Origin: Heliomicrobium modesticaldum Ice1
GTDB lineage: Bacteria; Bacillota; Desulfitobacteriia; Heliobacteriales; Heliobacteriaceae
Direction: 5' to 3'
DNA: 64,000 nt
Assembly (NCBI RefSeq): GCF_000019165.1
Contig: NC_010337.2
Span: forward strand, 2,070,501-2,134,500
The notes beneath the pieces were generated by a model. It had not been told where the DNA came from. It was given only the letters and a program-made list of their open reading frames with translations, and ran no database searches. The position numbers were made by a program, and so were the translations under genes. Positions 3,985 through 52,697 of the stretch are shown here, piece after piece. How positions within the stretch are numbered: position 1 is the stretch's first letter; every line of letters begins with the position of its first letter.

Positions 3985-4160
3985 ATCACATAGTCACGTT
4001 CACAGGTGCCCGCGAGGGAGAATAGGGAACCGGGTGTGAATCCCGGGCGGTCCCGCCGCTGTATGGGGGAGCCTGCTGCAAGATGCCACTTCACATGAGG
4101 GAAGGCGCAGCCGGTGAGGAACCTGAGCCAGAAGACCTGCCTGTGAACAGTCAAGGGTCT
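3985..4160 (+). promoter_or_regulatory. Cobalamin (adenosylcobalamin) riboswitch
   Basis: The outer stem pairs GTTCACAGG (3998-4006) with CCTGTGAAC (4140-4148). The core contains the typical GGGAA..GGTG.GAATCCC..GC.GTCCCGCC stretch (4017-4060) and the B12 box GAGCCAGAAGACCTGCC at 4125-4141. It is followed by a strong terminator, so it fits transcriptional OFF control by cobamide. Confidence 0.95.
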
Positions 4161-9914: not shown

Positions 9915-10613
9915 ATGGCGAAGATCCTGGTAGTGGAAGACGATCAACACATTTTGGAACTGGTCCGCTTCAACCTGGAAAAAGAGGGCCACACCGTCCA
10001 GGTGGCCGTCGACGGAGAGGCCGCCCTGGCCTGCCTTCAGGAGGAGCTTCCGGACCTGATCATCCTCGATCTGATGTTGCCGCGCCTGGACGGCCTCGAG
10101 CTGTGCCGGCGCGTGCGCTCGCGGAATCACTCCGCCCATCTGCCTATTCTCATGCTGACAGCCAAAGGGGAAGAGGTGGACAAGGTGATCGGCCTGGAGA
10201 TGGGCGCTGACGACTACATGACCAAACCCTTCAGCCCTCGCGAACTGGTTGCTCGCATCAAGGCCTTGTTGCGCCGTGCCACCCGCAGCGATGTCCGCCT
10301 CGGCGGTCCTATGCAGGTGGGCGAGTTGACCATCGATGCCGACCGCTATGAGATCCGCGTGGGCGGCGTCAAACAGGACATGACGCCGAAGGAATTCGAA
10401 CTGCTGCGTTGGCTCGCCTCCCATCCGGGCAAGGTCTTCACCCGCGAATTTCTCTTAGAGAAAATCTGGGGATACGACTTTTTCGGCGACAGCCGGACGG
10501 TAGATGTCCATATCCGCCACCTGCGGCAAAAGGTCGAAAAGGATCCGGGAAACCCTCGTTACATTGAGACGGTTCGCGGTGTCGGTTACAAGTTTCGCGA
10601 TCCGGAGGCCTGA
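9915..10613 (+). CDS. phoP: PhoP/PhoB-family response regulator
   Basis: OmpR-type regulator, 232 aa. Receiver domain residues 1-118 with acidic pocket D9-D10, phospho-acceptor D52, T82 and K104. A C-terminal winged helix (about 130-228) ends in the RTVDVHIRHLRQKVEKDP...VRGVGYKF signature. It lies two bases ahead of the kinase gene and upstream of pstSCAB-phoU, so phosphate-starvation control is the likely role. RBS AAGGAGG is placed well before ATG 9915. Confidence 0.92.
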   Translation: MAKILVVEDDQHILELVRFNLEKEGHTVQVAVDGEAALACLQEELPDLIILDLMLPRLDGLELCRRVRSRNHSAHLPILMLTAKGEEVDKVIGLEMGADDYMTKPFSPRELVARIKALLRRATRSDVRLGGPMQVGELTIDADRYEIRVGGVKQDMTPKEFELLRWLASHPGKVFTREFLLEKIWGYDFFGDSRTVDVHIRHLRQKVEKDPGNPRYIETVRGVGYKFRDPEA

Positions 10614-10615
10614 TC

Positions 10616-12049
10616 ATGGTCAACAACCGAGAGGCGGAACATCGTCCATCAGGTCTGGCGGGTCTGCTGGCGCTGCGGTACAGCTTGCAGTGGCGGATCA
10701 CCGCCGCCTTTGTCGTCCTTGTGTTGTTGCCGATCAGCTGGCTCTATTTTTTTACGCTCGATGTGATGGAGACCCATCCGGGCCTGCTCGCCACCCTCTT
10801 TTTCTTCTTCGCCTTTTCCACAGGCGTTGTTTTTTACTGGTCGGGGCAGCTTGCGAAGACGCTGGAGGAATACACCCGCGTCGTCCATCGGCTGGAAGCA
10901 GGCCATGGCGCCTGCCACTACCTGATGGACCAGCCCGATGAGTTGGGTCGGCTGGCCAGGGCGATCCATCAGACCGTCGAGACCGTTCGGACTAAGATTC
11001 ACCAACTGAGCCAAGACAAGACCAAGTTTGAGACGATCCTGGAATCGATGATCGAAGGGGTCGTCGGCTTCGATCACATGGGCCGCATCCTGCTGATGAA
11101 CAGCGCCGCCGAGCAGATGCTGCGCGTCCAGTCGGAGCGCGTCCGGGGCAAGCTCCTCCTCGAGGCTTTTCGCCATCGCGAACTGGAGGGCTTGTTGACA
11201 CAGGCGTTAAACACAGGGAAAGCGCAGAAAAAGCAGATGCAGCTCTGGCCGAACAAGCCGCAGACCTTCCGGGTGCAGGTCGTTCCCGTCTGGACCGATC
11301 AACGGCGGCTCCTCGGCGCGGCCATGGTCATCGACGATGTGACCGAGGTGCGCCGGCTGGAACAGATGCGCACCGAGTTTGTCGCCAATGTCTCCCATGA
11401 GTTGCGGACGCCCCTCACATCGATCAAGGGCTTTGTGGAGACGCTGTTGGACGGCGCCCTCGATGACACTAAGGTGGCGAGGCGGTTCCTCTCCATCATC
11501 AACGAGGAGACCCAGCGACTGCAGCGCCTGATCGAAGACCTGTTGCAACTGTCGCGGATCGAGAGCCAGTTGGGACGGGTCGTCGAGGGTCAGTCTTACC
11601 TCGAACCGGAGATCCAGCGGGTGCGCAACCTCCTGGAGCCTATCGCTGCCGACAAGCGGATCGCGCTGCAGGTCGATGTGGAAACCAACCTGCCCCTGCT
11701 GCCGCTTTCACCGGACAACCTGAAGCAGGTGCTCGTCAACCTGACGGAGAACGCGATTAAGTACACCCCCGAAGGCGGGCAGGTGAGTGTCCGGGCCACC
11801 CGTGGGTGCGATAGCGTCATCCTGGAGGTGCAGGACACGGGCATCGGCATCCCAGAGGAGAGCCTCCCGCGGATCTTCGAGCGCTTCTATCGCGTTGACA
11901 AGGCTCGTTCGCGCGAGTTGGGCGGCACCGGACTGGGGCTGGCTATCGTCAAGCACATCATTGAGCGGAGCGGCGGGAGGGTGACGGTTCAATCAAAGGT
12001 TGGCGTCGGATCGACCTTCACCGTTACCTTTCCTGTGGCAGAAGAATAA
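10616..12049 (+). CDS. phoR: PhoR-family sensor histidine kinase
   Basis: 477 aa. Two membrane helices (about 29-48 and 54-77) enclose only a very short outside loop, so direct phosphate binding outside the cell is unlikely; signals probably come through PstSCAB-PhoU. A HAMP-like segment follows (to about 130), then a PAS domain (135-245), a HisKA domain with phospho-His H261 in FVANVSHELRTPLTS, and an ATPase domain with N box (LVNLTENAIKYT), G1 (DTGIGIP) and G2 (GGTGLGLAIVKHI). It is the partner of the regulator two bases upstream. Confidence 0.92.
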   Translation: MVNNREAEHRPSGLAGLLALRYSLQWRITAAFVVLVLLPISWLYFFTLDVMETHPGLLATLFFFFAFSTGVVFYWSGQLAKTLEEYTRVVHRLEAGHGACHYLMDQPDELGRLARAIHQTVETVRTKIHQLSQDKTKFETILESMIEGVVGFDHMGRILLMNSAAEQMLRVQSERVRGKLLLEAFRHRELEGLLTQALNTGKAQKKQMQLWPNKPQTFRVQVVPVWTDQRRLLGAAMVIDDVTEVRRLEQMRTEFVANVSHELRTPLTSIKGFVETLLDGALDDTKVARRFLSIINEETQRLQRLIEDLLQLSRIESQLGRVVEGQSYLEPEIQRVRNLLEPIAADKRIALQVDVETNLPLLPLSPDNLKQVLVNLTENAIKYTPEGGQVSVRATRGCDSVILEVQDTGIGIPEESLPRIFERFYRVDKARSRELGGTGLGLAIVKHIIERSGGRVTVQSKVGVGSTFTVTFPVAEE

Positions 12050-12072
12050 GGGGACCAATCGCAATATATAAA

Positions 12073-12089
12073 TTAACAATAAAATAACA
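12073..12089 (+). promoter_or_regulatory. Candidate Pho-box direct repeat
   Basis: TTAACA (12073) and ATAACA (12084) are 11 bases apart, matching the TT(A/C/T)ACA repeats with 11-bp period bound by Gram-positive PhoP. Further repeats downstream (TTTATC at 12095) are weak, so only two good half-sites are seen. A terminator lies between it and the next gene. Confidence 0.3.
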
Positions 12090-12117
12090 CGTCCTTTATC
12101 TGTTGATAAAACATAGG

Positions 12118-12155
12118 TCTTACCCTTCCGTATAGGGGGGTAAGATTTCTTTTTT
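12118..12155 (+). terminator. Terminator after phoR
   Basis: TCTTACCC (12118-12125) pairs with GGGTAAGA (12138-12145), followed by TTTCTTTTTT. Confidence 0.8.
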
Positions 12156-12234
12156 AACGCCGTCTAAAAATGAGCAGAGGATATTGTTTCTCAGGCTGCT
12201 TTGTGAAACACCGTGAAGGGGAGAAACGAAGGCT

Positions 12235-12549
12235 ATGACAATGGAGCGCATGGGCGTAGAAAAAGCACTCTCGGTGACCCGCTCCATCGCTGCGTTGCCG
12301 ATCGGCCGCTTTGCCGAACCAGTTCAGATGATGGAGGCCATCGACAGTACGGGAGAACATGCGGAGAGTTTTTACGACTTATCTGGAGAGATTTCAGCCA
12401 GTTCAGCCCACCTGTTGATAGTGATTCAGTTTTTCGCCCAAGAGGCAAAAGCGACAGCCGGTCTGGAGGCAGGCGCTGATGACAGCGCCCTTGTGCTCCG
12501 TCACGAATCGAGCAGGAGGCAGACCGGATGGGACCGTTCGATATGCTAG
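12235..12549 (+). CDS. Small hypothetical protein, translationally linked to the GGDEF-EAL gene
   Basis: 104 aa, start ATG 12235 (or ATG 12241) preceded by GAAACGAAGG. Its end overlaps the start of the cyclic-di-GMP gene by 22 bases, and the downstream ribosome site AGGAGG (12513-12518) lies inside it, suggesting coupled translation. I do not recognise the family. The sequence is mostly helical with a hydrophobic stretch SSAHLLIVIQFF, somewhat like the last helix of chemoreceptor signalling domains, so it may be a relic rather than a working protein. No signal peptide. Confidence 0.5.
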   Translation: MTMERMGVEKALSVTRSIAALPIGRFAEPVQMMEAIDSTGEHAESFYDLSGEISASSAHLLIVIQFFAQEAKATAGLEAGADDSALVLRHESSRRQTGWDRSIC

Positions 12550-14870
12550 AGGGTTGGTTGAAAAGCCTCGGTCAGCCCTTTTCCCAGGAGGTTAGCTTTT
12601 ACCCCTCCACCGTCTCCAGTGCTGAGGTGCTCAAGCAGATTGAGCGCGGTTTAGAAAATGAAAATGGCGTCGGTCTCGTCTTTCTTGATATCGTCGGGTT
12701 CACCGCCATCGAGCGGAGTTATGGCTTTTCCGTCTGTAAACAGGTGCTGTCCACCCTGAGCCAGGCGATCATGGAGGCAAAGCCCATCCTCGGTGCGGGG
12801 CGAGGCCTGTTCGTACATAACCTCAACGGCGATGACTTCGCCGTTTACTATTCCCTGCCGCCGGGCGATATCGACACGGTGCTGGACTTTTTGGAACGTC
12901 TGGCGGAAGACCTGCGCAGCCAGTCGCTGGCTGTGGTCAACGAGACCTTGAGCGGTCTTTTGCGGGAACCACTCGACCTGCACCTGGGTTGGGCGATCCT
13001 GCGACCAACCTCCGGGTTGAGCCTGGAAAGCCTCGTCTACAATGCCCTTAAGGAAGCGACGGCGATCGCCAAGGGGCACAGCGACGCCAAATGGTCTCGC
13101 CGCATCTGGGAATTGAAGGAAGCTATGGCGGAGGATCGGTTCCATGTGGTCTATCAGCCCCTGCTCAGCCTGGAGAAGGGTGAGATCATCGGCTATGAAG
13201 CCCTCTGCCGCGGTCCTGTCGACAGTTATTTCGCTTCCCCCAGCGTCCTCTTTCCCTTGGCCGAAAAGGCTGACCTGCTGTACCCTCTGGAGCGGCAGAT
13301 CCGGGAAAAAGCCATCGCCGAGTGCGGCGAGCTGCTGCGCGATCAGCTTCTCTTCCTCAACATCAGCCCGTCGGTCGTGAAGGATCCCGAATTCGCTCAG
13401 GGCAACACGCGCCGCCTGATCGCCGAGCATGGCTTGCGGCCTCACAACATCGTCTTCGAGATCACGGAACGGACGGCCATCGACGACTTCGGTAGCTTCC
13501 GGAAGACCCTTAAACATTACCGAGAACAGGGATTTCGGGTGGCTGTCGATGACGCCGGCGCCGGATATTCGAGCCTGCAAGCCATCGCCGAACTGCAGCC
13601 CGACTTCATCAAGATCGATATGTCCCTCGTCCGGGATATCGACACATCGTCGATCAAGCAGGCCCTCATGGAAACCTTTGTCACCTTCGGGCGCAAGATC
13701 GGTGCGAAGATCGTGGCTGAGGGCATCGAGACGGAAAAAGAGCTGCGCTTTTTGTCCCAGATCGGTGTAGACATCGGGCAGGGCTTTTTTATCGGCCGGC
13801 CCCTGCCCAAAAGAGAGGGCCCCAGCGCCGAGGCCATCGCTGTCCTGGCAGACAAAAAGAACCGCCTCCGGGCGGAACCGCTGCATGCCGTCACTGTCGG
13901 CAGCCTGGTGGAGGAGTGCCATGGCCTGCAAAAGGATCAGTTGACCCGTGAGGCGATGAGACACTTTCAGCGCCACGCCGACTGCAACAGCTTGGTCATT
14001 CTCGATGGCGAAATGCCGGTGGGGTTGGTCATGCGGGACAAGATGTATAGCCACCTGGCCAACCAGTACGGTGTTGCCCTCTATGCCGACCGGCCTGTGT
14101 CCCTGGTCATGGACCACGACCCGTTGATCGTCGACAGCGCCACCCGGTTGGAAAAGGTGTCCCAGATGGCCACGTCACGTCAGCTGCAGCGCCTCTATGA
14201 CCACATCATCGTTACGGATAAAAACCGTTGCACCGGTGTCGTCTCAGTTCGGACGCTGCTGGATCACATGACCCGGATCCAGATGGAGTATGCCCTGGCG
14301 GCCAATCCCTTGACTGGATTGCCGGGGAACCCGCGCATTGAACAGGACATCCTGCGGCGCTTCGAATGGAATCAGGCTTTTACGGTCATCTACATCGATC
14401 TGGACAATTTTAAGGCCTTCAATGACCGCTACGGTTTTGAGCGCGGCGACCAGGCGATCAAGCTGCTGGCCGGCATCGCCGGCGACGTCGTCCGTGCCAA
14501 GGGTCGCACCGATGATCTGCTGGCCCACATCGGTGGCGACGATTTCATCATCCTGACGGGAAACCCCTACGAAGCCATCTGTGAAGGGATCATCGCCGCC
14601 TTTGACCGGGAGATCGTTGAGCTTTATTCGGCAGAGGATAGAGAGCGCCGCTGCATCTGCTCGAAAGACCGACAAGGCAACACCTGCTTTTTCCCGATCA
14701 TGTCGGTCTCCCTGGCTGTCGTGGAGTGCTGGCCGGGACGCTTTGACCACCCCATGGAACTGGGCGAGGTGGCCGCCGAGGTGAAAAAAGAGGCCAAGCG
14801 GCAGAGCGGCAGTGTCTACATTATTGATGAGAAAAGCCGAAGGCAAAAAGATTCGTTAACAGAATCTTAA
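12528..14870 (+). CDS. Cyclic-di-GMP protein with GGDEF-EAL-CBS-CBS-GGDEF architecture
   Basis: 780 aa, cytosolic. Residues about 45-185 form an N-terminal GGDEF-like fold with NGDDF at 100-104 in place of GGDEF. An EAL phosphodiesterase domain (about 200-435) keeps its catalytic signature: YEALCR (223-228), LNIS, FEITER, DDAGAG (341-346), KIDMSLV and AEGIE (398-402), so activity is expected. Two CBS domains (about 455-582) could sense an adenine nucleotide. A second GGDEF domain (about 590-770) has an intact GGDDF at 669-673 and an inhibitory-site RTDD (660-663) exactly five residues before it, so cyclic-di-GMP synthesis with product inhibition is possible. It lies between phoPR and pstS, hinting at phosphate-linked control of cyclic-di-GMP. 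RBS AGGAGG before ATG 12528. Confidence 0.88.
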   Translation: MGPFDMLEGWLKSLGQPFSQEVSFYPSTVSSAEVLKQIERGLENENGVGLVFLDIVGFTAIERSYGFSVCKQVLSTLSQAIMEAKPILGAGRGLFVHNLNGDDFAVYYSLPPGDIDTVLDFLERLAEDLRSQSLAVVNETLSGLLREPLDLHLGWAILRPTSGLSLESLVYNALKEATAIAKGHSDAKWSRRIWELKEAMAEDRFHVVYQPLLSLEKGEIIGYEALCRGPVDSYFASPSVLFPLAEKADLLYPLERQIREKAIAECGELLRDQLLFLNISPSVVKDPEFAQGNTRRLIAEHGLRPHNIVFEITERTAIDDFGSFRKTLKHYREQGFRVAVDDAGAGYSSLQAIAELQPDFIKIDMSLVRDIDTSSIKQALMETFVTFGRKIGAKIVAEGIETEKELRFLSQIGVDIGQGFFIGRPLPKREGPSAEAIAVLADKKNRLRAEPLHAVTVGSLVEECHGLQKDQLTREAMRHFQRHADCNSLVILDGEMPVGLVMRDKMYSHLANQYGVALYADRPVSLVMDHDPLIVDSATRLEKVSQMATSRQLQRLYDHIIVTDKNRCTGVVSVRTLLDHMTRIQMEYALAANPLTGLPGNPRIEQDILRRFEWNQAFTVIYIDLDNFKAFNDRYGFERGDQAIKLLAGIAGDVVRAKGRTDDLLAHIGGDDFIILTGNPYEAICEGIIAAFDREIVELYSAEDRERRCICSKDRQGNTCFFPIMSVSLAVVECWPGRFDHPMELGEVAAEVKKEAKRQSGSVYIIDEKSRRQKDSLTES

Positions 14871-14972
14871 ACGTCGCGTAATTCTTGTCTAACATTCAAC
14901 ATGTATAGTTGCATATGGAAATGCGGACATGCTCCGGCATGACGCCAAAAATCGAGGAGGTATTACCACTTC

Positions 14973-15875
14973 ATGAACTCGCTGAAGAAGTTCTCCAAGG
15001 TTGTGGCCCTGGCCGCTGTCGTCGGTCTGCTGGGCACTGTGGCCGTCGGTTGCGGCGGCAATGCGCCGAAACAGGATGCTGCCAAGCCTGCCGCAGAATC
15101 CGGCGTGAAAGGCTCCATCCAGGTGAAAGGTTCCGACACGATAGTCAACCTGAGCCAAGCCATGGCAGAAGAATTCATGAAGAAAAACAAAGACGCCAGC
15201 ATCGCTGTCACCGGTGGCGGATCGGGCACCGGCATCAAAGCACTTGTGAACGGCACGGCTGATCTGGCCAACTCCTCCCGGGATATGAAAGCGGAAGAGA
15301 AAAATGAGATCAAAGAAAAGACCCAGAAAGATGTCAAAGAGTTCGTCATCGCCAACGACGGCATCGGTTTCATCGTCAACAAGGACAACCCTGTCAAGGA
15401 ACTGACCATGGAACAACTGGCCGACATCTACACCGGCAAGGTGAGCAACTGGAAAGAGCTCGGCGGCAATGACGAGAAGATCGTCGTCTACGCTCGCGAA
15501 ACCTCTTCCGGCACCCATGTCTTCGTCAAAGAACATGTCATGAAGAACAAGGAATATCGCAGCGATGCCCTGCTGCAAAGCTCCAGCGCCGCTATCGTCA
15601 AGGAAGTGGAAGGCAACAAAGGCGCCATCGGTTATGTCGGTCTCGGTTATCTGAAAGACTCCGTCAAAACCATCGCTGTCAAGAAAGACGCCGGCTCTGC
15701 CGCTGTGCTGCCCTCTGAAGCCTCTGTCAAAGATAAATCCTACCCTGTCTCCCGTCCGCTCTTCGTCTACTCGGCTGGTGAGCCCCAAGGTGTCGCCAAG
15801 GCCTTCGTCGACTTCATGCTGAGCAGTGAAGGCCAGGCCATCGTCAAGAAGATGGACTTTGTGCCGGTCAAGTAA
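14973..15875 (+). CDS. pstS: Phosphate ABC transporter substrate-binding lipoprotein
   Basis: 300 aa. Lipoprotein signal with a hydrophobic stretch (residues 10-24) and lipobox ending at C27. The binding fold starts KGSIQVKGSDTIVNLSQAMAEEF. The phosphate-binding signatures GSDT, GGSGTGI and ARETSSGTHVF are present. It delivers phosphate to PstCA-PstB at the outer face of the membrane. RBS GAGGAGG lies about 11 bases before ATG 14973. It is followed by an attenuator-like terminator before pstC, as expected for a protein needed in excess. Confidence 0.93.
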   Translation: MNSLKKFSKVVALAAVVGLLGTVAVGCGGNAPKQDAAKPAAESGVKGSIQVKGSDTIVNLSQAMAEEFMKKNKDASIAVTGGGSGTGIKALVNGTADLANSSRDMKAEEKNEIKEKTQKDVKEFVIANDGIGFIVNKDNPVKELTMEQLADIYTGKVSNWKELGGNDEKIVVYARETSSGTHVFVKEHVMKNKEYRSDALLQSSSAAIVKEVEGNKGAIGYVGLGYLKDSVKTIAVKKDAGSAAVLPSEASVKDKSYPVSRPLFVYSAGEPQGVAKAFVDFMLSSEGQAIVKKMDFVPVK

Positions 15876-15915
15876 GAGACAAAACAATCCAGAGCCGGAA
15901 TAATCTAAAAAGTAG

Positions 15916-15949
15916 AATGGGCAGAGTGTATGAGTGCTCTGCCCATTTT
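15916..15949 (+). terminator. Terminator/attenuator between pstS and pstC
   Basis: An 11-bp perfect stem AATGGGCAGAG/CTCTGCCCATT with a 10-base loop, then TTTT. Partial read-through would give more PstS than permease. Confidence 0.75.
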
Positions 15950-15980
15950 CCTGCGATGAAGGACCAAGGGGGATGGTGCC

Positions 15981-16940
15981 ATGAGTCCAAACGGCGAAAA
16001 TACAGCCATCACAACTGAATTCGTAGTGCGCAAAGAATCGTTAAGCAAAGGCGCTTCAAAAAAACGAAGAATTTGGGACGTCGCCGAAAAAATGACCGAG
16101 GGTCTCCTCTTTCTCAGCGCCTTTATCGGCGTCGTCACGATCATCCTCATCTTCTTGTTTCTTTTTAAGGAAGCGATTCCTTTGATGACCGATCCGGCTG
16201 CGGGCACGCTGCTTTCTAAGAAATGGTACCCTATCTCCAGTCCGCCTGTTTTCGGCCTGCTGCCGCTGATCGCCGGTTCCATCATCGTCACCTTCGGCGC
16301 CATTGTCATCAGCGTGCCTTTAGGTGTCGGCGCCGCTATCTACCTGGCCATGGTGGCCAGTCCTGTTGTGCGGGAAACGCTGAAGCCAGCCATTGAGGTC
16401 CTCGCCGGCATCCCGTCGGTCGTGGTCGGTTTTTTCGGCCTCGCCGTCCTGGCGCCCTTGATCAAAGACTTATTTAACCTGCCGACCGGCCTGACGGCGT
16501 TGACAGGCGCCATCACCTTGGCGCTGATGGCCTTGCCGACGATCACCTCCATCTCGGAAGACGCCATCTCCTCGGTGCCTCGGCGCTATATGGAAGCGTC
16601 CCTCAGCCTGGGCGCCACCCGTTGGCAGGCGATCAAGACGGTCATTGTGCCGGCGGCCCTTTCCGGCATCACGGCGGCGATCATGCTGGGCATTGGCCGC
16701 GCCATCGGCGAGACGATGACAGTGTTGATGGTTACCGGCAACGCCGGCGTCATTCCAGACACTTTCCTCGTCCCTGTCCGGACCATGACGGCCACCATTG
16801 CCGCCGAGATGGGTGAAGTAGCCCGGGGCAGCGACCATTACTATGCCCTGTTCCTCGTCGGCGCCGTACTCTTTTTGATGACCTTTTTGATCAACCTCGT
16901 GGCCGACATCGTCAGCCGTCGCATGAAGGAGGTGGAGTAA
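15981..16940 (+). CDS. pstC: Phosphate ABC transporter permease PstC
   Basis: 319 aa inner-membrane permease with six hydrophobic helices: one near 40-60, then the transporter core from about residue 93. The cytoplasmic EAA loop reads YMEASLSLGATRWQAIKTVIVPAALSGI (near 196-223). It pairs with PstA and PstB. ATG 15981 follows AAGGGGGATGG. The next gene starts directly after its stop codon. Confidence 0.93.
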   Translation: MSPNGENTAITTEFVVRKESLSKGASKKRRIWDVAEKMTEGLLFLSAFIGVVTIILIFLFLFKEAIPLMTDPAAGTLLSKKWYPISSPPVFGLLPLIAGSIIVTFGAIVISVPLGVGAAIYLAMVASPVVRETLKPAIEVLAGIPSVVVGFFGLAVLAPLIKDLFNLPTGLTALTGAITLALMALPTITSISEDAISSVPRRYMEASLSLGATRWQAIKTVIVPAALSGITAAIMLGIGRAIGETMTVLMVTGNAGVIPDTFLVPVRTMTATIAAEMGEVARGSDHYYALFLVGAVLFLMTFLINLVADIVSRRMKEVE

Positions 16941-17786
16941 GTGTCTCCGAAGGTTGCTGAAAAAGTCGCCTTCCATATCCTGCGGGCAATGGCGGCCTTG
17001 ATCGTGCTGGTCCTCGTCGTCGTGCTCTGGGACCTCTTTTCGAAGGGCTTTCCGGCGCTGACCTGGGAGTTTATCACGGAGAACCCGCGCAAGGGGATGA
17101 CGGAAGGTGGTATTTTTCCTGCCATTGTGGGTACCTTCTACCTCGTCCTGGCCACGATCCTCTTTGCTTTGCCCGTCGGCGTGATGACAGCTGTCTACCT
17201 CGTCGAGTATGCCCGTGAATCCTGGGCGACGCGCATCATCCGTCTTGCTGTCGTCAACCTGGCTGGTGTTCCTTCCGTCGTCTTCGGTCTCTTTGGACTC
17301 GGTTTCTTCGTCCTCTTTCTAGACTTCGGCGTCTCCATCCTCTCCGGTTCGCTGACGTTGGCCTTGATGATCCTACCGGTCATCATCACCACTACGGAAG
17401 AAGCGTTGCGGGCCGTTCCCAACGGCTACCGGGAGGCCAGCCTCGCCCTTGGCGCGACGAAACTGCAGACGATCCTGCTCATCGTTCTGCCGAACGCCAT
17501 GCCGGGGATTTTGACGGGCTCCATCCTGGGCGTCGCCCGGGCGGCTGGTGAAACGGCGCCCATCCTGCTGACGGCGGCTGCCTTTTTCTTGCCGCGCCTG
17601 CCAAGTAGTGTTTTCGATCAGGTGATGGCCTTGCCCTATCACCTGTATGTCATCGCGACTCAGGTGCCCAACGCCGACCCGAAGATTCCCTACGGAACGG
17701 CGACGGTCTTGATGATCCTCGTCCTTGGCCTGAATCTGGTGGCCATTCTGTTGCGCTCGTACTTCCGTCGCATGCGCAGAGTGTAG
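16941..17786 (+). CDS. pstA: Phosphate ABC transporter permease PstA
   Basis: 281 aa. GTG start immediately after the pstC stop, with GGAGGTGG inside the end of pstC. Six hydrophobic segments; EAA loop YREASLALGATKLQTILLIVLPNAMPGI and the conserved GAARAAGETAPIL-like block (GVARAAGETAPIL). Second membrane half of the phosphate transporter. Confidence 0.93.
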   Translation: MSPKVAEKVAFHILRAMAALIVLVLVVVLWDLFSKGFPALTWEFITENPRKGMTEGGIFPAIVGTFYLVLATILFALPVGVMTAVYLVEYARESWATRIIRLAVVNLAGVPSVVFGLFGLGFFVLFLDFGVSILSGSLTLALMILPVIITTTEEALRAVPNGYREASLALGATKLQTILLIVLPNAMPGILTGSILGVARAAGETAPILLTAAAFFLPRLPSSVFDQVMALPYHLYVIATQVPNADPKIPYGTATVLMILVLGLNLVAILLRSYFRRMRRV

Positions 17787-17795
17787 GAGGAAAAC

Positions 17796-18554
17796 ATGGC
17801 GAAGACAAAAATTTCCGCAGAAAACGTAAATCTTTACTACGGAGACTTTCAAGCCTTGAGAAACATTACCGTCGCCATCGGCGAGGGAGACGTGACCGCC
17901 CTGATCGGTCCCTCAGGCTGCGGCAAGTCGACCTTCTTGCGCTGTCTCAACCGGATGAACGACATCATCCCCAGCTGCCGCGTGGAAGGCAAGCTGATGT
18001 TCGAAGACACCGACATCTACCACCCGGACACGGATGTGGTGGCCTTGCGCAAGCGGGTCGGCATGGTCTTCCAGGCGCCCAATCCCTTCCCCAAGACGGT
18101 CTATGAGAACGTAGCCTATGCGCCGAAGCTGCATGGCCTCAAAGACAAGCGCAAGCTTGATGAGATCGTGGAGACGACGTTGCGCCAGGCGGCGCTGTGG
18201 GATGAGGTGAAGGACCGCCTGCACAAACCGGCCCTCGGCCTGTCCGGCGGCCAGCAACAGCGCCTCTGCATCGCCCGCGCCCTGGCCATCCAGCCAGAAG
18301 TTCTTTTGATGGATGAGCCCACCTCTGCCCTCGACCCGATCTCGACCTTGAAGATCGAAGAATTGATCCGAGAACTGAAACAGCACTACACCATCGTCAT
18401 CGTCACCCACAACATGCAGCAGGCAGCGCGCATCTCCGACAAGACGGCCTTCTTCCTTGTAGGCGATCTCGTCGAATTCGATGATACAGAGGTCATCTTC
18501 ACCAATCCGAAAGACCAGCGCACCGAAGACTACATCACGGGACGCTTCGGCTAA
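17796..18554 (+). CDS. pstB: Phosphate ABC transporter ATP-binding protein
   Basis: 252 aa. Walker [10 protein letters not shown] (38-46), signature LSGGQQQR, Walker [13 protein letters not shown] and switch His in VTHNMQQA are all intact. PstB hallmark LNRMNDIIP follows Walker A. It powers phosphate import and is thought to pass the phosphate signal to PhoR with PhoU. RBS AGGAGG 7 bases before ATG. Confidence 0.95.
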
Positions 18555-18653
18555 GGCTGTACGCTTCGCTCCGCGGCCTCAGGGGAAACCTAACCTTTCG
18601 ATCAGCCTTGCTTCTGATTGAACACCCAAGGATAAGGAAAGGGCGGATGGCTC

Positions 18654-19313
18654 ATGACGACGCGTTCGGAATTTGACGTGTCTTTGAAAAATTTACAACA
18701 GGATCTGCTTCGCATGGGCGCCCTGGTAGAGGAACAGATCGAAAAGGGGATCGAGGCGCTGGTCCGGCAGGACGTGGCCTTGGCCGATGCAGTCGTCGCC
18801 AACGATGACGAGATCGATCGCATGCAGCTGACTATTGAGGACCGCTGCATGAAGCTGATCGCCATGCAACAGCCGATGGCCAAGGATCTGCGCCGGATCA
18901 GCGCCGCTTGGCGGATCACCATTGACTTGGAGCGGATGAGCGACAACATCGTCGACATTGCCAAAGCCGTACGTAGGTTGGCCCAGGAGGATTATTTCAA
19001 ACCCCTGGTCGTCATCCAGAAGATGGCGCAGATCTGCCAGTGCATGGTCAAAGACGGCCTGGACGCCTACGTCTATGAAGACGAGGAACTGGCTATCCGC
19101 ATGAGCGAACTGGATCATCAGGTCGACGCGCTGTATAAGGAGGTTCTGCAGGAACTTCTGGCGATCATGATCAAGGATCCGCAAAAGATCACTCAGTCGA
19201 CGCATCTGCTTTTCGTGGCCCGCTACCTGGAGCGGTTCGGCGATCACGCAACCAATATCGCAGAAACCATCGTCTACCTTGTCTCGGGGAAGCGGAAGGA
19301 TCTGAATGAGTAG
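18654..19313 (+). CDS. phoU: Phosphate signalling protein PhoU
   Basis: 219 aa, two three-helix PhoU repeats. The metal-binding motif appears as E/DxxxD in each half (for example DDEIDRMQLTIEDRC and LDHQVDALYKEV); the C-terminal hallmark ARYLERFGDHATNIAE is intact. It links transporter state to PhoR and prevents phosphate overload. It lies 100 bases after pstB with RBS AAGGAAAGGG, and ends the phosphate cluster before a strong terminator. Confidence 0.93.
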   Translation: MTTRSEFDVSLKNLQQDLLRMGALVEEQIEKGIEALVRQDVALADAVVANDDEIDRMQLTIEDRCMKLIAMQQPMAKDLRRISAAWRITIDLERMSDNIVDIAKAVRRLAQEDYFKPLVVIQKMAQICQCMVKDGLDAYVYEDEELAIRMSELDHQVDALYKEVLQELLAIMIKDPQKITQSTHLLFVARYLERFGDHATNIAETIVYLVSGKRKDLNE

Positions 19314-48141: not shown

Positions 48142-50113
48142 ATGACAGTCAAAGGAAAGTTCAGCTTGATGAATGGGTTGGCCGTACTTTTCACAGCCTT
48201 AGCCGTTGCCGCGAGCATCTTTTTTGTGTTTTTCCAAGATGAGATGGACGATACCCAAAGTGCCGTGGAGATGATGGCCGATTCGTTGAAGCAGGAGTTT
48301 GCGACCGATATCCGCGAGATAAAGCGTGCAGGGGTCACAGAAGCTTCTTTTCCGGAACTCCGCAGCCCTGATCGGCAAGCGGTAGAAGAAGAGTTGGCCT
48401 TGATGTTCCAACAGGCCGACGATCTTTATGAGAACCTATTTATTTTAGATCGTCAAGGAACGATGACCGCTATCTATCCGCCATCTCCGTCCCTCCTCGG
48501 CACAGATTTTTCCGATCGCGCCTACTTCAAGGGTGTCATGGCGACAGGAAAGCTACAGATGTCGAGTGTTGTCAAAAGCCGCAACACGGGCAACCCCATC
48601 TTTGTGATTGCCCACCCGATGAGGGATGAGGCTGGTCAGATCGTCGGCCTTTTCGGGCAGGCCGTGCGATTCTCTGTGTTGCAAGGGCGGATTTCGGAAG
48701 TGACTGTTGGAAAAACAGGCTTTGCGACCATCTTCGATGCAGAAGGGAAGCTCATCGCCCATAAAGATGATGAAATGGTTTTGTCGGGAAAACATACACC
48801 GCCGGCCGTGTGGGAAGCTGCAAAATCAGGAAACCTCCATGTCTTTGAATTTACCAATCTCTATGGCGAAGTAAGTCTCGGTACCGTGCGGCCGATCGAG
48901 GGAACACCGTGGTACCTGGCTGTTGTGGTGCCGAAAGCGGAGATGCTGCAAGGCTTTATATCGGCTGCTGTATGGGCGGCGATGATCACCGGTGCCATCC
49001 TTATTGGTTTTACGGCGTTCCTATGGTGGCAGATCGGAAAACAACTGTCGCCGCTTGAGCAGATGGCAGGTGCAGCCCGGCAGGCCGGTGAGGGCGACTT
49101 GACGCGCCGCCTTGAACATGACGCGAAAGATGAATTCGGGCAACTGGCAGGCGCCTTCAATTCGATGCAAGAGAACCTGCGTCGGTTGATCCAGCAGGTG
49201 GCCGGCAATGCGGCGCAATTGGCTGCCGCCAGCGAAGAGATGACGGCCAACGCCCACGAATCGGCTGATGCGGCTGGACAGGTGGCTCAGTCGATCAGTC
49301 AAGTGGCTGTTGCTGCCGACGATCAGGACAAGATCTTTACGGGGGCCCTTGAAAAAATCGCTCATCAAGTCGAGCAGGTCCATCAGGTGGTGGAGGACGC
49401 GAAAGGCCATCACCGCCCGAGCGATGGAAGCGGTGAAAGCGACGGAGGCGGGCAAGACCGATATGCAGCGAATCGAAGGGACGATGGAGACAATTGCTGC
49501 GGAAAGCCACAAGGTCTCTGAGAGCATGGATCAATTGGCCAAGAGCTCGCAACAGATCGGCCATATCGTTGAGCTCATCGCTGGCATTGCGAACCAGACG
49601 AACCTGCTGGCCTTGAATGCAGCCATCGAAGCGGCTCGTGCCGGTGAACAGGGGCGCGGTTTTGCTGTTGTGGCTGATGAGGTGCGCAAATTGGCCGAAC
49701 AGTCACAGCAGGCAACGTTGCAGATCGCCGATCTCATTCAGCAAAATCAGTCGAGCATGGAACAGGCTGTCGCTGCGACGGAAAGCAGTGTCAACACGGT
49801 TAGGCAAGGCGCGGCGACGGTGCAGACAGCGGGCCAGCGTTTTCAAGCGATTGGACAGATCGTGGAAGAGGTTCATCGGGCGCTGCAAACTACCTCCGCG
49901 ACGATTGTCGAGGTGGGCGAAGGCAGTCAACAGGTGAGCCACCTCTTTGAATCGTTGTATGGGCTAAGTCAAAAGATCGCTGCCGAATCGCAAAACGTAT
50001 CAGCGGCGGCACAAGAGCAGAGCGCCTCGATGGAAGAGATCGCTTCGGCGAGCCAGGTCCTTGCCCGATTGGCCGAGGAACTGGAGGTGGAAGTGCAGCG
50101 TTTTGTGGTATAA
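48142..50113 (+). pseudogene. Methyl-accepting chemotaxis protein interrupted by a +1 base frameshift
   Basis: Frame 1 (48142 to about 49404) codes an N-terminal helix (residues 8-33), a Cache-type sensor (to about 265), a second helix (270-297), a HAMP domain (298-350) and the start of the signalling coiled coil. Reading then moves to frame 2 to 50113, which holds the tip [41 protein letters not shown]. The shift is explained by one extra G in GCGAAAGGCCATC at 49405-49406; removing it restores [13 protein letters not shown]. The whole would be about 656 aa. It may be a real mutation, a sequencing error or recoding. As written, the first product ends at 49521 with 38 wrong residues. RBS GGGAAAGG before ATG 48142. 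Confidence 0.85.
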
Positions 50114-50630
50114 GCGTTTCAGAAAAAGTGCATCTGTTGTGGAAATACCCACGACAGACTGTAAGGTCCTGCTTAGATCAACGGAAAAACCGGTTACCGC
50201 CAAAATCGGCAATTCACAGGAATAAAAATGTGGGAATACAGCGAAGGAAGCAGCAAAGCCGTCTCATGCGAATATCATGCGCAGGAGGCGGCTTCTTCAT
50301 CGTTATGGTGGAGGCGCTCTCACCGGCATATCCACTGCAAAGTTGCAGCCATCTGCGCGATTGCGCAGGATAAGGCATCCCTTCGATCGAATTGTCGCCG
50401 TATTATCTCCTCATAAGAAGGTTTCCTAAGATTTACAGATTTGTTACGGTCATGTGATAAATGGCAGGTAACCAGATTAACTAAAAAATAACTGTAATTT
50501 ACTCAATCCTTGATATAATGAGAGTAAGCGAAGAAAATCGAAAAATGTCGAAACAGAACTATAGTGGGTCGAGTTTTCTGGTTGATTTTCTCCACCTGAT
50601 AGCTCGATAGCGTATGGGGGAGGGCATGTC
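50114..50630 (+). other. 517-bp AT-richer intergenic region between chemoreceptor genes
   Basis: No convincing gene; small frames here lack family features. It contains a hairpin-like pair AAGCCG (50257-50262) and CGGCTT (50289-50294) preceded by CACAGG...GCAAAGCC, which vaguely recalls a cyclic-di-GMP-I riboswitch but lacks its core, and an extended -10 promoter near 50514. Confidence 0.6.
50511..50519 (+). promoter_or_regulatory. Extended -10 promoter of the intact chemoreceptor gene
   Basis: TGATATAAT: a perfect TATAAT at 50514-50519 with the TGn extension. No good -35 box; start codon 112 bases downstream. Confidence 0.55.
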
Positions 50631-52697
50631 ATGTCACAAAAAAGCGTTTTCTCATTCAACAGTATTGCGGCCAAAACAATGCTATCGATCCTGCCGTTGA
50701 CCATCCTTGCCTTGGTGGCTTTATCGTCGGTCAGTTTTTATTATGCCAAACAGATCATCTATCAAGATGTTGATGATGAAATGAGCCAACAGCGTAACTA
50801 CGTTATTCGTGATATCAGCGCCCGCTTGACGGCCCATGCGAAACTTGCTGACGTCGTGGCGCGCAATATGGAAGCGTACGGTGAGACACTCAGCAAAGAC
50901 TTGTTTGAACAACAACTGATCAACACGGTGACGGCCAACGAGGAAACCTTTGGCGTAGGCGTTTTCTTTGAGCCGAACCGGTACAAGCCGGATCTGAAGT
51001 ATTTTGGTCCCTATGCCTATCGGGATAAGGACAAGATTGTTCCCACCTGGGATTACAGCAATGATACATATGATTACTTCCAGTATGATTGGTATAAAAA
51101 TGGCGCCAACACCAAAGCGAGATACGTCTGGAGCGATCCCTTCGCCGATACCGTGACCGGCGTGGTCATGGTGACGACGACAGCCCCTTTTTACGACGAG
51201 CAGAAGCGGTTCATGGGTGTCGCGACAGCTGACATCGATTTGACCAGTTTGCAAAAACTGATGAGAGAAACCAAGGTCGGTGACCAGGGCTGGGCCTTCT
51301 TGCTGGACAAGCAGGGCACATACCTCTCCACCAACGATGAGAAGAAAAATATGAAAGTGAAGATGGCGGAGGAAGAAAACAGCAGCCTCGTCGCCTTGTA
51401 CAAAGAGATGGAGTCTCAGAAACAGGGCAGCGGCGTCTTTCGAGACGGCGGTGCTGCCTACCGGGTGTATTACGATGTTGTTCCCGAAGTCGGTTGGACC
51501 GTAGGCCTCGTCATCCCCGAAGAAGAATTGGCGGCGTCGTTGAATGCCTTGATGAGCAAAATCGTACTCATCGCCGCAGCCTCCATCCTGTTTGTCGCTC
51601 TTGTCGTCTATTTCTACAGCCGCTCGCTCACCGGCAACATCAAAAAAATCCATCAGCTATCCGAGCAGATGGCAGCTGGTGATTTCACGGGAACCGTAAC
51701 AGTGACATCTCGCGATGAGATCGGTGAGCTGGCCGATAACATCAATACGATGGCCGAAGCGGTGCGAAGGATCGTTCATAAGATCAGCCTGAGCGCCAAA
51801 GATGTGCACACTTCGGCGGAGAGCCTCCGCAGCGGAGCGGAGCAGAGCGGAAAAGCGGCGGAGACGATCAGCGCGTCTATTCAGCAGGTATCGAGCGGCA
51901 TCGATCAACAGGCGGCCAACATCAACGCCAACAACCAGACGGTCGCCGAAATCTCGGCACAAATCGGGACGGTCAGCAGCACCATGGCCGCTGTAGCCGG
52001 CGCTGCGGAAAAAACGCTGAATCAGGCCGCTGGCGGCAATGAGGCCGTGAAAGCGGCGGTCCAGCAGATCAATCGGATTGACGAAAAGGTAAACAGCATG
52101 GCCGGCGTGGTCAACGCCCTTGGCGATAAATCAGACGAAATCGGCCAAATCGTTTCCCTGATCACCAGCATTGCCGAACAGACCAACCTGTTGGCCCTAA
52201 ACGCCGCTATCGAAGCCGCCAGGGCGGGGGAAAACGGCCGGGGCTTTGCTGTCGTTGCCGGTGAGGTGCGCAAATTGGCGGAGCAATCGGGACAAGCGGC
52301 AGGACGGATCCGTCAACTGGTCGGTGAGATCCAAGGGGAAACGGCTAATGCGGTTGAGTCGATGCAAGATGGAATGACTGCGGTGCAGGAAGGCATCGTC
52401 ATGGTGAATAAAGCCGGCGGCGCTTTCCACGAGATCGTCGATGCCGTGCATCTGTTGTCACAGCAAGTGAAGGACGCCGCTGCCGTCGTCGGCGAGATCC
52501 ATGAAGGCGCCGTCACCATGGTGGATTCGATGGACCAGGTGACCAAGATCGCCCGTGAGTCGGCTAAAAGCCTGGAAGACGTGGCTGCAGCCACGGAGGA
52601 GCAGGCCGCCACGGCCGAAACGGTGACCTTTGCCGCCAATCAACTGGCTGGCATGGCGGCAGAATTGGACCAGTCGGTCCGAATGTTCAAGGTATGA
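50631..52697 (+). CDS. Methyl-accepting chemotaxis protein with dCache sensor
   Basis: 688 aa. First membrane helix at about 18-38, an outside double-Cache domain (40-300) with [26 protein letters not shown], the [22 protein letters not shown] block and [21 protein letters not shown], a second helix (about 307-327), HAMP (328-380), and a signalling domain with the tip [42 protein letters not shown]. The ligand may be an amino acid or organic acid; not determinable here. RBS GGGGGAGG before ATG 50631. Its 3' end overlaps a truncated receptor by 4 bases. Confidence 0.93.

Follow-up and report, generated by a model that had tools for sequence, protein, structure and literature searches.

A RapA-type EAL-CBS-GGDEF protein with a predicted PhoP box between phoPR and pstS in Heliomicrobium modesticaldum

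In Pseudomonas fluorescens, RapA, which is induced through PhoB when phosphate is low, draws down c-di-GMP and releases the biofilm (PMC3032545). PA3258 is a RapA homologue with the domain order EAL-CBS-GGDEF (PMC12900916). For CBS domains in general, AMP, ATP or SAM are the supposed ligands (PMC8846402). In the literature we found, RapA-type phosphate control of c-di-GMP is described in Pseudomonas. Here we analyze a gene of the same type in a 64-kb stretch of the Heliomicrobium modesticaldum genome (the window; Table 1). On balance, we read its product as a Pho-induced phosphodiesterase of the RapA/PA3258 type that carries an additional, degenerate GGDEF domain N-terminally and whose activity would be set by its CBS pair together with its C-terminal GGDDF domain. 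Judged from sequence, its most likely function would be to lower c-di-GMP under phosphate limitation.

Table 1. Features of the locus, numbered from the first nucleotide of the window
Feature	Position	Strand	Basis or remark
phoP-type response regulator, OmpR family	9915-10613	+	Response_reg and Trans_reg_C (Pfam)
phoR/PnpS-type sensor kinase	10616-12049	+	NCBIfam PnpS 441 bits, cut-off 400
Predicted PhoP box before remnant/enzyme pair (four direct repeats of 11 bp)	12073-12111	+	24.1 bits
Terminator-like hairpin and U run, end of phoPR transcript	12115-12155	+	Fold -17.7 kcal/mol, z -3.9
Leader element GTTTCTCAGGCTGCTTTGTGAAAC, 24 nt	12186-12209	+	Identical in three species
104-aa ORF, ends of a CBS-MCP gene joined by in-frame deletion	12235-12549	+	Junction about 12335/12336
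Ribosome-binding site of enzyme gene, AGGAGG	12514-12519	+	Within 104-aa ORF; read from sequence
RapA-type GGDEF*-EAL-CBS-GGDEF protein, 780 aa	12528-14870	+	ORF list, Pfam, alignment
Degenerate GGDEF-like domain, N-terminal, residues 23-190	12594-13097	+	Alignment, structure matches
EAL phosphodiesterase domain, residues 195-425	13110-13802	+	Pfam; catalytic residues complete
CBS pair, residues 455-590	13890-14297	+	Canonical ribose-binding Asp absent
GGDEF domain, C-terminal, residues 593-770	14304-14837	+	GGDDF; RTDD at I-site position
Predicted pstS PhoP box, overlapping 3' end of enzyme gene	14856-14894	+	-10 TATAGT at 14904
pstS	14973-15875	+	Profile matches
pstC, pstA, pstB	15981-18554	+	ORFs; heliobacterial order conserved; names by pst-operon position
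phoU	18654-19313	+	Pfam

Domains and conserved residues of the enzyme

The domain order in the original prediction (NGDDF, EAL, CBS pair, GGDDF) agrees with Pfam and with structure alignments. Pfam matched the EAL domain (residues 195-425, 4e-59), the C-terminal GGDEF domain (residues 594-681, 7e-21) and a single CBS domain above the cut-off (residues 527-581, 4e-7); the other CBS domain, the first of the pair, scored below threshold. Pfam gave no clear match to the N-terminal domain because of its degeneracy. Residues 23-433 align with the GGDEF-EAL structures PA0575, MorA, RbdA and DosP, the NGDDF domain falling on their GGDEF part. Its guanine-contact positions, where N and D are expected, are occupied by E62 and K71 and the contacts are lost, so the domain departs from the canonical signature of an active cyclase (GG[DE]EF plus guanine contacts). 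The predicted structure of the protein (mean pLDDT 85, pTM 0.52) leaves the arrangement of the domains unfixed.

The EAL catalytic set (E-A-L, N, ExxE, DD, K, E, Q) is complete (E224, N278, E311, E314, D341, D342, K362, E398, E401 and Q418), and its residues are retained in 32-34 of 34 relatives. This domain is intact in every variant examined, whereas the C-terminal GGDEF domain is lost or swapped in some. Heliobacterium chlorum has lost it through a frameshifting deletion (L126:7878-9683, a draft assembly). In Treponema porcinum (L102:5992-8097) SpoIIE takes its place, giving an EAL-CBS-SpoIIE protein encoded directly before pstSCAB-phoU. Because of these two cases, and because its dN/dS is the lowest of the four domains (0.061), we regard the EAL domain as the core of the protein, which favors a Pho-induced phosphodiesterase.

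The C-terminal domain offers a different reading. It carries GGDDF and retains its metal and guanine contacts; about 30 of 34 relatives share D624, K629, N632, D633, D641 and GGDD, which leaves room for cyclase activity. The protein could then be a bifunctional switch or net cyclase in which the GGDDF domain makes c-di-GMP under I-site feedback and the CBS pair decides between the activities; low phosphate could then raise c-di-GMP. The RxxD site described as intact in the original prediction is indeed present, as RTDD at the I-site position, and two sister species have RSDD, in keeping with feedback inhibition. Among heliobacterial relatives, however, RxxD at the exact I-site spacing is confined to these three species, and it is missing from nearly all other relatives and does not count as a family feature. 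Moreover, the fourth residue of the GGDEF motif is Asp almost throughout the relatives, the domain is lost in H. chlorum, and the known homologue RapA works as a phosphodiesterase (PMC3032545). We consider a bifunctional switch or net cyclase rather unlikely.

The nucleotide sensing proposed in the original prediction fared poorly. It would have the CBS pair bind AMP or ATP and relay phosphate status through cell energy, in line with the ligands thought to bind CBS domains (PMC8846402), and the conserved Arg, Tyr and Asp residues of the region (R503, Y514, R522, D529 and D558) do suggest a charged ligand. However, the ribose-binding motif T/S-x-x-D that marks an AMP/ATP pair is missing from both halves, which read MRDK and SVRT, and its Asp is poorly conserved across the enzyme family. 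A PDB sequence search with the pair returned no close match among solved CBS pairs. An adenine-nucleotide sensor thus seems improbable.

Phosphate signals at the locus and among relatives

As predicted originally, the gene lies between phoPR and pstS; the flanking genes are phoP, a PnpS/PhoR-type kinase, pstSCAB and phoU, and other heliobacteria have the same arrangement. The best NCBIfam relatives of the phoP product are YycF and PhoB, below the equivalog cut-offs. Synonymous divergence from the relative G001 is patchy over 9915-19313 (about 0.25 for phoP and phoR, 0.79 for the enzyme gene, 0.91 for phoU), which suggests recombination blocks.

Each of the eight heliobacterial gaps on the pstS side contains four 11-bp TTAACA-like repeats. 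Six of these gaps served to build a repeat-unit model, with which both strands of the window were scanned. The pstS box, a training sequence, ranked first (29.7 bits), the box upstream of the remnant/enzyme pair second (24.1 bits) and a site at 50477 third (19.4 bits). In the sister species G001 and G002, and also in H. mobile and H. chlorum, the second-ranked site lies at the matching position, and the box scores were reached in 0 of 500 dinucleotide shuffles. Genome-wide, where the statistics consist of one pattern search, a TAA-N8 repeat pattern matched only at the upstream box and at pstS, compared with four matches for the reversed control pattern. Two repeats of the upstream box are good and two are weak. 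The third-best site (50477-50515, + strand) precedes a chemoreceptor gene (50631-52697) by about 115 bp, in a low-GC stretch. Second strong boxes also occur in the pst regions of two other heliobacteria (L124:7848 and L123:5018), apparently before a further pst-region gene.

A weak -10-like sequence, TACCCT at 12121, lies 9 bp from the upstream box, the same spacing as for the pstS -10, and may be the -10 of a remnant/enzyme promoter. It falls within the 5' arm of the terminator-like hairpin; the hairpin could therefore end phoPR transcripts yet spare those that start at this promoter. The leader element GTTTCTCAGGCTGCTTTGTGAAAC is unique in the H. modesticaldum genome and is bounded by an inverted repeat (GTTTC/GAAAC). 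Given that the pstS box overlaps the enzyme gene at its 3' end, the pst genes have a promoter of their own; with this Pho box lying downstream, the enzyme gene probably stands beside, rather than within, the pst transcription unit. No c-di-GMP riboswitch was found near the enzyme gene at the Rfam gathering threshold in the window and four relatives. The sole Rfam match in that set was a cobalamin riboswitch (3987-4158, + strand, 109.6 bits).

The family was compared in 29 stretches from related Clostridia that contain a homologue, with EAL genes, mostly from the same genomes, as controls. Genes of pst or phoU neighbored 14 of the 29 homologues and none of 31 control EAL genes (p 4e-6), and an upstream box of at least 18 bits preceded 17 of 29 homologues and 1 of 30 controls (p 3e-6); these p-values overstate independence, since many of the genomes are close relatives and many come from one genus. 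The remaining 12 of 29 relatives lack a box of 18 bits. An MCP gene was immediately adjacent to 17 of 29 homologues and to 0 of 31 controls. Most of these neighbors encode a membrane 4HB-MCP and come from one genus-rich clostridial group, which we take to be Desulfosporosinus-like; the MCP gene there often lies 15 bp downstream. Outside the clostridial set, pst or pho neighbors occur in Pelotomaculum, other Bacillota, Humidesulfovibrio, Desulfomicrobiaceae and Treponema.

Homologues from Pseudomonadales, the order of Marinobacterium, have about 600 residues and lack the N-terminal domain. A PhoB-like box, CTGTCAT-N4-CTGTCAT matched at 11 or more of 14 positions, lies upstream of 19 of 24 of them; such a match occurs in 17 of 460 random windows. 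Full-length homology to the heliobacterial enzyme (34% identity over 595 residues) is shown by an EAL-CBS-GGDEF protein encoded on a P. aeruginosa plasmid. Its gene has PhoB-like repeats at the start and adjoins a gene for a C-terminal processing protease; on this gene order we provisionally take the copy to be PA3258. The upstream box, the shared heliobacterial arrangement, the boxes and pst neighbors in other phyla and the RapA-type homology together make the phosphate link of the enzyme gene well supported at the sequence level. The phosphate half of the proposed switch thereby gains weight.

The 104-residue reading frame and its chemoreceptor relatives

Both predicted reading frames, of 104 and 780 residues, are present with the 22-bp overlap that had been described. 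At the same place G001 has an intact 406-residue gene that likewise overlaps the enzyme gene by 22 bp, and intact versions of 404-446 residues occupy the matching place in six heliobacteria (G001, G003, G006, G007, H. mobile and H. chlorum). The intact gene encodes a CBS pair followed by an MCP signaling domain and is, to judge by these domains, a soluble chemoreceptor (CBS-MCP). The 104-residue frame retains only the two ends of this protein, both domains being deleted, and had no significant match in Pfam or NCBIfam. A separate, different in-frame deletion has likewise removed the CBS and MCP domains in the sister species G002. What had been called a small unknown protein thus reads as an in-frame deletion remnant of the CBS-MCP gene. 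A search of the rest of the H. modesticaldum genome for an intact CBS-MCP gave none with clear homology; a weak CBS match (25%) lies in a 655-residue frame elsewhere in it.

The original prediction had cast the small protein as a partner of the enzyme. A working partner would account for the reading frame being preserved after two different deletions, in H. modesticaldum and G002, and the ORF keeps its own start, a ribosome site and the overlap with the enzyme gene. However, it consists of just two chemoreceptor ends without a CBS or signaling domain and carries substitutions at conserved sites (R to I, L to F and Q to E in LLRVIQFLAQQA), and translational coupling explains the retention of the frame. 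We regard a partner role as very improbable. The retained codons have a low dN/dS against G001 (0.05); most of the history behind this value may predate the deletion.

In a CBS tree, the chemoreceptor pair is sister to the pair of the heliobacterial enzyme with modest support (SH-aLRT 81), and duplication of a CBS module followed by fusion to two outputs is therefore suggested. The H. modesticaldum genome encodes flagellin, chemoreceptors, CheW and one PilZ protein. It has 23 MCP-domain matches, compared with 58 and 63 in two relatives of the genus; in view of these, flagellin and CheW, we rejected the idea that the organism has lost chemotaxis altogether. At 48142-50113 (+ strand), overlapping ORFs of 459 and 281 residues in different frames, the latter with an MCP signaling domain, look like one frameshifted chemoreceptor gene. 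G001 showed no such pair at the equivalent position.

Proposed function and comparison with known systems

The mechanism that we infer for a Pho-induced phosphodiesterase, including its induction, net direction, ligand and output, would run as follows. Under phosphate limitation, PhoP~P would bind the predicted upstream box, and the remnant and enzyme gene would be transcribed together, beyond the terminator of the phoPR transcript. Hydrolysis of c-di-GMP by the EAL domain would lower its level and tip the cell toward swimming rather than staying put. This activity would be set by the CBS pair and by the C-terminal GGDDF domain, which may bind GTP and could, but need not, synthesize c-di-GMP. 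Possible outputs are the flagellar system, the chemotaxis system and the PilZ protein. For most heliobacteria, the soluble chemoreceptor with its related CBS pair would be a further product of this transcription unit, whereas in H. modesticaldum the remnant would mainly preserve the translational link to the enzyme gene.

The new element is the recurring neighborhood with pho and pst genes, often with a chemoreceptor in addition. The sequences suggest Pho control of the RapA-type family in Clostridia and a place near pst for it in sulfate reducers and treponemes, where as in Clostridia a chemoreceptor gene is often its neighbor. We tentatively raise the idea of a cross-phylum, Pho-controlled module for leaving when phosphate runs out, in which genes for a RapA-type phosphodiesterase and a chemoreceptor have repeatedly come together in operons, the receptor being a cytosolic CBS-MCP in heliobacteria and a membrane 4HB-MCP in Desulfosporosinus-like bacteria. 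If this is true, one phosphate-related ligand would set c-di-GMP and chemotaxis together in heliobacteria, since both proteins carry sister CBS pairs. These comparisons make a general connection between phosphate starvation and motility testable.

The heliobacterial enzyme shares the EAL-CBS-GGDEF order with RapA of strain Pf0-1 and PA3258, the homology having been measured against the P. aeruginosa-type protein, and, as in that type, a Pho box (identified by sequence) stands in front of the gene and the protein has a GHIGGDDF-type motif. Unlike them, it has the additional degenerate GGDEF domain, and its gene is placed between phoPR and pst with a chemoreceptor gene, here a remnant, before it; unlike RapA, it is not known to act with a Lap system. 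Residues 23-433 resemble the GGDEF-EAL arrangement of RbdA (PA0861), RmcA (PA0575) and MorA, whose GGDEF domains are degenerate or regulatory, whereas the heliobacterial protein contains, in addition, a CBS pair and another GGDEF domain and has no PAS or membrane part. The P. aeruginosa phosphate chemoreceptors CtpL and CtpH (PMC4926252) likewise tie a chemoreceptor to the Pho/Pst system, as at the heliobacterial locus; CtpL works through periplasmic PstS, whereas in the heliobacterial CBS-MCP the CBS pair is the only recognized sensor domain.
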